A stretch of DNA of 46,443 bases, taken from the NCBI GenBank assembly GCA_902525575.1, contig CABZHU010000007.1, positions 1 to 46,443 on the forward strand, written 5' to 3'. This DNA comes from an uncultured Pelagibacteraceae bacterium. Its GTDB lineage: Bacteria > Pseudomonadota > Alphaproteobacteria > Pelagibacterales > AG-422-B15. Within the stretch, counting starts at the first letter, position 1. Each line of letters starts with the position of its first letter. Below are positions 32,876 through 32,918 of this stretch, piece by piece. The translations under genes and the position numbers were made by a program. Under the pieces are notes generated by a model that was given only the letters and a program-made list of their open reading frames with translations, did not search any database and was not told the origin of the DNA.

Positions 32876-32913
32876 GATTCTAAATACTATTGACCTGGAT
32901 TCTATTTTGAATC
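32876..32913 (+). promoter_or_regulatory. three GANTC methylation sites upstream of ccrM
   Basis: GATTC at 32876-32880, GATTC at 32898-32902 and GAATC at 32909-32913 all fit GANTC, the sequence methylated by CcrM. Two lie within the candidate promoter of ccrM itself. In Caulobacter, methylation of such sites reduces ccrM expression, so autoregulation by methylation is suggested here. Confidence 0.6.
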
Positions 32914-32918
32914 ATATT
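32890..32918 (+). promoter_or_regulatory. candidate ccrM promoter
   Basis: TTGACC (32890-32895) is followed after 17 bases by CATATT (32913-32918, four of six to TATAAT). The start of transcription would fall about at the ATG (32926), giving a leaderless or nearly leaderless message. A CtrA-type TTAA-N7-TTAA site was sought and not found; the nearest TTAA pair is nine bases apart. Confidence 0.4.

Follow-up and report, generated by a model that had tools for sequence, protein, structure and literature searches.

SAR11 bacteria count among the ocean's most abundant cells, and they time their cell cycle without CtrA. In Caulobacter, ccrM carries GANTC sites in its transcribed leader. Here we ask what the ccrM promoter is built of in an uncultured Pelagibacteraceae bacterium, and what reads it. 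The window, that is, the whole stretch of DNA analysed (46,443 nucleotides), contains rnhB followed by ccrM, the gene for the GANTC adenine methyltransferase. Since GANTC sites stand at fixed positions in this promoter and are common before ccrM in Alphaproteobacteria, CcrM probably controls its own production. In a ccrM promoter built at its core from the recognition sites of CcrM, and kept in much of Alphaproteobacteria, we have a precise, testable element: mutation or methylation of three short sites should change ccrM output.

The ccrM promoter and the predicted leaderless start

The spacer between rnhB and ccrM is 69 nt long and contains the promoter and all three GANTC sites, which span 38 bp from first base to last (Table 1). 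TTGACC-17-CATATT (32890-32918) is one of five consensus matches returned by a mechanical promoter scan of 351 bases, with 1.6 expected. Sites 2 and 3 lie inside the -35/-10 region of this sigma70-type promoter. The -10 hexamer has C instead of T at position -12 because GANTC occupies positions -16 to -12. The region is best explained as the ccrM promoter, used by the housekeeping sigma factor, and its spacer and -10 edge are built from CcrM recognition sites.

Table 1. Features of the rnhB-ccrM locus in window coordinates.
Feature	Position	Strand	Remark
rnhB (ribonuclease HII)	32251..32856	+	upstream neighbour; stop ends at 32856
GANTC site 1 (GATTC, within TTGATTC)	32876..32880	+	9 bases upstream of the -35 hexamer
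-35 hexamer TTGACC	32890..32895	+	promoter consensus scan
GANTC site 2 (GATTC)	32898..32902	+	in the -35/-10 spacer
GANTC site 3 (GAATC)	32909..32913	+	final C is promoter position -12
-10 hexamer CATATT (form CAnnnT)	32913..32918	+	promoter scan
Predicted transcription start	32925..32926	+	at the ATG or one base before; inferred from the -10-to-ATG gap
ccrM, GANTC adenine methyltransferase, 365 aa	32926..34023	+	ATG at 32926

The ccrM product carries the Pfam domains N6_N4_Mtase and RAMA. Its residues 7-365 align to the solved Caulobacter CcrM (6pbd) with an E-value of 1.1e-156; it scores 615.8 bits, below the cut-off of 830 bits of the NCBIfam equivalog model for Caulobacter CcrM. The sequence-only reading of this DNA had described three GANTC motifs within 38 bases upstream of a GANTC methylase gene, with two of them in the spacer and the -10 part of the promoter, and it was right on each of these points.

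Only 7 nt separate the -10 hexamer from the ATG of ccrM. The distance from site 3 to the start codon is 17 nt in 27 of the 28 same-genus loci and 16 nt in the remaining one (L007), and it holds in L028, although the start codon there is GTG. There is no further in-frame ATG, GTG or TTG in the first 45 codons of the ccrM of the window. We thus predict from this geometry a leaderless ccrM mRNA, starting at the ATG or one base before it.

Conservation of the sites in the order and in the class

The rnhB-ccrM spacer was compared in related genomes, as had been proposed for checking the motifs. Among the 28 same-genus loci, which comprise 11 distinct sequences, only L024 departs from the full set of three: its site 2 is missing, and the other 27 loci have all three sites. 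Site 1, site 3 and the TTGAC of the -35 hexamer are present in all 28. Site 2 reads GATTC in most of its 27 loci and GAATC in L026, L027 and L028; in L026 and L027 it is shifted by one base and is still GANTC. In one locus (L030, genome G013) ccrM itself is broken, with two overlapping matches and seven stops in the first of them, perhaps by sequencing error, and the promoter is intact.

In the sister family, of which 20 of 23 genomes were fetched, TTGAC followed by two GANTC sites is found in 14 of the 20. All 14 genomes of genus g3 have it, and the tandem form is absent from the 6 genomes of genera g2, g4, g5 and g6. Site 2 of g3 reads GAATC in 10 genomes, GACTC in 3 and GAGTC in 1, with GA.TC constant. 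The change of N while GA.TC stays is a sign of selection on the methylation word itself. In all 14 g3 genomes site 3 reads GAGTC and runs on into TAATT or TACTT, and the ATG comes 21-23 nt after the first base of the site; the spacer is one base longer than in the host and the -10 less clear. In the named collection the nearest ccrM loci are those of Pelagibacteraceae AG-904-D18, AG-337-G06, AG-422-B15, AG-896-A02 and AG-909-F08, which places the window in a SAR11-type bacterium.

To survey the class we sampled 80 other alphaproteobacterial families by a single genome each. These are 80 of the 82 families chosen among the matches listed (202 of 241 genomes matched; G161 and G204 were dropped); families with only weak hits were left out, and start codons were assigned as the nearest ATG. 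The 100 bp before ccrM contain at least one GANTC in 70 of the 80 families, at least two in 60 and at least three in 46, and none in 10; the mean is 2.66, against 0.35 in base shuffles. The tandem form TTGA[CT]-GANTC-GANTC occurs in 30 of the 80 families and in none of 20 dinucleotide shuffles per sequence. Within these 30 tandem-type families the proximal site follows TTGAC at a distance of 14 in 26 cases and of 15 in 4. In 29 of 30 the C that ends the proximal GANTC also opens a -10 hexamer of the form CAnnnT, which the search pattern did not require. Also in 29 of 30, another GANTC is found no more than 30 nt upstream of the -35.

On geometry, a leaderless mRNA would have its first in-frame ATG, GTG or TTG 16-19 nt past the proximal site, and 15 of the 30 tandem-type families do. 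Ten have their first in-frame start 25-68 nt past the proximal site, which counts against a leaderless start there. In the other five it lies only 5 or 8 nt past the site; we take these to be chance start codons within the -10. The leaderless form is therefore common, not universal.

The named collection, a set rich in Rhizobiales, gave 78 usable loci of 80 (L200 and L238 were dropped for insufficient upstream sequence). The tandem form is present in 18 of the 78, four of them Pelagibacteraceae. In the 80-family sample, one family (L194) stacks GANTC before ccrM in another way, with a 15-bp tandem repeat that holds six GATTC. The survey suggests that the self-methylated ccrM promoter is old in Alphaproteobacteria and that the CtrA-driven version of Rhizobiales and Caulobacter is derived.

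Candidate regulators and the proposed mechanism

Which protein, then, acts at this promoter? With the CtrA model NF045991 at E 1e-60, CtrA was found in 0 of 29 genomes of the order; the Caulobacter control was positive, and CtrA is over the cut-off in 11 of 17 other genomes of the class. Three OmpR-type regulators were found in the host, two scoring 120.7 and 85.9 against a CtrA cut-off of 350, and for the third, truncated one the CtrA model was not among the matches. According to Brilli et al. (PMC2877005) and Adhikari et al. (PMC7987155), Pelagibacter has no ctrA. A missing CtrA site at ccrM is therefore expected, which agrees with the earlier remark that none is recognisable, and CtrA control of the host ccrM was rejected, no CtrA being found in the 29 genomes.

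By a loose box pattern, CtrA-like boxes precede ccrM in 31 of the 46 named loci that have one GANTC or none, and in 4 of the 32 that have at least two. In the 80-family sample they are rare either way (2 of 22 and 4 of 58, respectively). In many named Rhizobiales (Rhizobium, Ensifer, Mesorhizobium and others) CtrA-like boxes stand before ccrM and GANTC is absent there; these counts agree with the CtrA sites reported before ccrM in rhizobia (Brilli et al., PMC2877005). The Rhizobiales promoters of this type belong to the orthologous gene in the same class and carry CtrA-like boxes where GANTC are few.

For ccrM genes without CtrA sites, Brilli et al. proposed DnaA control (PMC2877005). No TTATNCACA box with up to one mismatch is present in the spacer and 30 nt of rnhB, and we rejected this candidate for the host. 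The exact DnaA-like box TTATNCACA occurs within 140 nt upstream of ccrM in 5 of the 80 families (L127, L129, L160, L164 and L192). In L129 and L192 it lies, by eye, between the -35-like element and the proximal GANTC.

GcrA is present. With PF07750 the host protein scores 128.8 bits, above the Pfam cut-off, which is passed in 28 of the order's 30 genomes searched, and both its DNA-binding and its sigma-binding part align to Caulobacter GcrA (7ye1); it misses the NCBIfam GcrA equivalog cut-off with 132.6 of 280 bits. Host gcrA is flanked by an M48-like peptidase and an ABC-2-type permease (L031 1-3420; names given by eye). G019, a genome of the same genus that is 99% complete, keeps the ccrM promoter with gcrA undetected, and G004 is also without gcrA. 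In both, the permease that neighbours gcrA in G025 has no orthologue either (best match 30% identical), and since this neighbour is missing alongside gcrA, an assembly gap is likely.

The three sites read TGATTCT, GGATTCT and TGAATCA. None of them fits the extended Caulobacter motif YGAKTCG, which was not recovered in Brevundimonas (PMC7987155), and site 1 alone fits YGAKTCK, the looser motif of the same comparative scan (PMC7987155). For Ca. P. ubique that scan assigns a high probability as a GcrA target to few of the conserved genes (PMC7987155).

Across the class, GcrA is over the cut-off in 21 of the 30 tandem-type families and in 41 of the 50 others (Fisher P 0.27). Co-occurrence thus shows no association with the tandem promoter; the argument for GcrA-dependence from it was dropped, and GcrA-dependence is therefore not claimed as shown. 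The remaining tandem-type families comprise one with GcrA below the cut-off and eight without detected GcrA (L150, L154, L158, L159, L164, L174, L184 and L186). Altogether 17 of the 80 families have no GcrA by Pfam; a relaxed search gave sub-cut-off scraps in 7 of the 17, and a 12-sequence GcrA profile run on the 17 gave one match (E 0.25), with both controls found. In those eight families either GcrA has diverged, or there is another reader, possibly the polymerase itself.

The sites are real, conserved and placed within the promoter, and methylation-linked control of ccrM is therefore well founded. The likeliest form of it, and one that we hold to be fairly probable, is a GcrA/sigma70 promoter of ccrM that is switched by the gene's own product through methylation and gives a leaderless mRNA. 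We suggest the following sequence of events.

Step 1: CcrM would methylate the three GANTC sites of its own promoter. In a cultured Pelagibacter 99.86% of GANTC are reported as fully methylated (PMC9516812). For an environmental genome the same source gives 42 GANTC unmethylated in all samples, and the passage cited names sufE, groEL and a ribosomal protein among them, not ccrM (PMC9516812).

Step 2: GcrA on sigma70 RNA polymerase would read the methyl marks beside the weak CATATT and aid the opening of the promoter. A weak -10 next to methyl marks is the spot where a cofactor of the GcrA type would help. GcrA is described as binding sigma2 and methylated promoters and as stimulating open-complex formation (PMC7403470).

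Step 3: With the passage of replication the sites would become hemimethylated, and the promoter activity would be reset once per cycle. Transcription would proceed from the ATG, giving the leaderless ccrM message.

The sequence-only reading held that the Caulobacter logic seems retained here; that the Caulobacter arrangement is kept is not supported. Caulobacter ccrM is activated by CtrA (PMC2877005). The likeness is that the gene is the same and that methylation state is thought to matter there too (PMC3973325). In contrast, the host ccrM has two sites in its core promoter, in the -35/-10 region, and a predicted leaderless mRNA, and CtrA is undetected. GcrA control of ccrM is, moreover, predicted to be lost in Caulobacterales and Parvularculales (PMC7987155). 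Caulobacter ccrM is a poor template for the host ccrM promoter.

Closer are the GcrA/CcrM sigma70 promoters of Caulobacter, where GANTC also lies inside the promoter and GcrA and CcrM are both encoded; in Caulobacter, those cell-cycle promoters that have GANTC between -10 and -35 make up a timing group of their own (PMC4287350). However, the host promoter has three sites, two of them in tandem and one fused to the -10, its target is ccrM itself, CtrA is undetected and YGAKTCG is absent. Adhikari et al. 2021 (PMC7987155) compared 13 species, each from a different alphaproteobacterial order, and in many of them predicted ccrM to belong to the core of GcrA targets; they scored sites anywhere in -200 to +100. 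Brilli et al. 2010 took promoter regions of 500 bp, and their GANTC counts there did not let them derive the control (PMC2877005). To this the present analysis adds the tandem arrangement with its fixed distances, the overlap at -12, the predicted leaderless start and the finding that such a promoter is nearly unique in one genome. Among the papers listed on neighbouring subjects, none describes this geometry, the overlap at -12 or a leaderless ccrM in its title or the opening of its abstract, though Haakonsen 2015 and Wu 2018 may do so.

Two other readings accept the sites as functional. The first, which is that of the sequence-only reading, is negative feedback: full methylation, or bound CcrM blocking the polymerase, would lower ccrM, with the promoter firing only in the hemimethylated interval after replication. 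The sites are placed where a bound protein would block the polymerase; for Caulobacter, ccrM itself is reported to be most probably under the influence of methylation (PMC3973325), and the P1 promoter of ctrA to be activated when hemimethylated (PMC4287350). However, the known biochemistry of GcrA at methylated promoters is activation (PMC7403470). We regard negative feedback as possible though on the unlikely side, and note that it differs from the GcrA/sigma70 explanation mainly in sign, so that the two overlap.

The second reading needs no GcrA. Methyl groups at -15 and -13 would directly alter recognition or melting by sigma70, and CcrM would tune its own promoter. The position of site 3 relative to the -10 hexamer is nearly invariant, as such an effect would have it, and the tandem-type families in which neither Pfam nor the 12-sequence profile detects GcrA, 8 of 30, include one with a single-contig genome (G113). 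Yet a divergent GcrA could escape both searches, and in the order itself GcrA is widely present and its known role fits. A direct effect thus seems improbable to us, and GcrA on sigma70 polymerase remains the reader that we favour.

Position of the sites in the host genome

Of the host genome, 800,558 of 937,062 bases (85%) were analysed, and a simple ORF script predicted 807 genes in them. These 800,558 bases contain 1733 GANTC (2.16 per kb) against 2461 expected from base composition, and the window contains 102 against 159 in dinucleotide shuffles; GANTC is therefore depleted. Intergenic GANTC are not enriched (2.15 against 2.17 per kb in genes), unlike the intergenic enrichment reported for Pelagibacter (PMC9516812). 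Triples within 38 bp number 4, with 4.4 expected under random placement, so the triple as such is ordinary. What is not ordinary is the position: a triple in one pre-chosen 38-bp window has a probability of about 6e-5, and three GANTC within 60 bp upstream are found at ccrM only, that is at 1 of the 807 predicted genes. The proposed comparison of GANTC numbers with random expectation thus came out in two ways: the number of triples is that of chance, and the place before ccrM is unique.

The chance-level count first suggested incidental clustering, chance GANTC words in an AT-rich promoter being kept through common descent, and the missing intergenic enrichment speaks for it as well, but position and conservation led to its rejection and make it scarcely credible: the sites persist across two families while the N of site 2 changes, the word survives the one-base displacement in L026 and L027, and the same geometry recurs in 30 of 80 other families and in no shuffle.

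The loose tandem pattern TTGACN{3,7}GANTCN{4,8}GANTC has a single match in the whole host genome, at ccrM, and its backwards control gave zero. A more general form, TTGnnn-(16-18)-CAnnnT with GANTC at -16 to -12, gave 31 matches in 800 kb. Of these, 29 lie inside predicted genes; one (C11 8130) is 71 nt before another predicted start. Two are outside genes, and only that of ccrM is just ahead of a gene start. A wider regulon of GANTC promoters in the host was rejected on these counts, with 29 of 31 matches intragenic and one more not before any start.

We compared the intergenic sites with G025, of which 1.18 Mb were read and whose CcrM is about 82% identical. Of 106 intergenic GANTC, 81 could be matched in G025, and in 8 of these the match leaves out the site itself. 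The 73 comparable sites include 44 conserved ones (41 besides the three of ccrM); in genes the figure is 486 of 1327. By eye, several of the 44 fall in rRNA- or tRNA-like sequence. Other conserved intergenic GANTC, single or paired near gene starts, may be functional. No gene start besides that of ccrM has three GANTC conserved in G025.

These results allow a further suggestion, which we put forward as speculative and improbable: the GcrA-CcrM circuit of SAR11 would have shrunk to a near-closed loop, with ccrM the main and perhaps the only promoter still sensing methylation, and the methylase, its mark and the sigma cofactor would mainly be there for timing the leaderless ccrM message to replication. 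It is suggested because ccrM has the sole promoter match outside genes before a start and the sole conserved triple, and because the 110-nt region upstream of gcrA is without GANTC in 27 of 28 loci; its basis is a single motif geometry, looked at in 85% of a single genome.

At L068 9140-9170 a GANTC near a start, in the CAnnnT form (GAATCATTTT), is conserved in G025 before a carA-like ORF. This ORF, named by eye and with GAATCATTTT before its start, was considered as a candidate and set aside, as it is without a good -35. In the order, 37 of 43 genomes have a match to the loose tandem pattern, and several same-genus genomes have one to four extra matches. A second such match (TTGACTTTTCATGA...), absent from the host-genome sample and from G025, recurs in G001, G004, G015, G018, G021, G023, G026 and G032.
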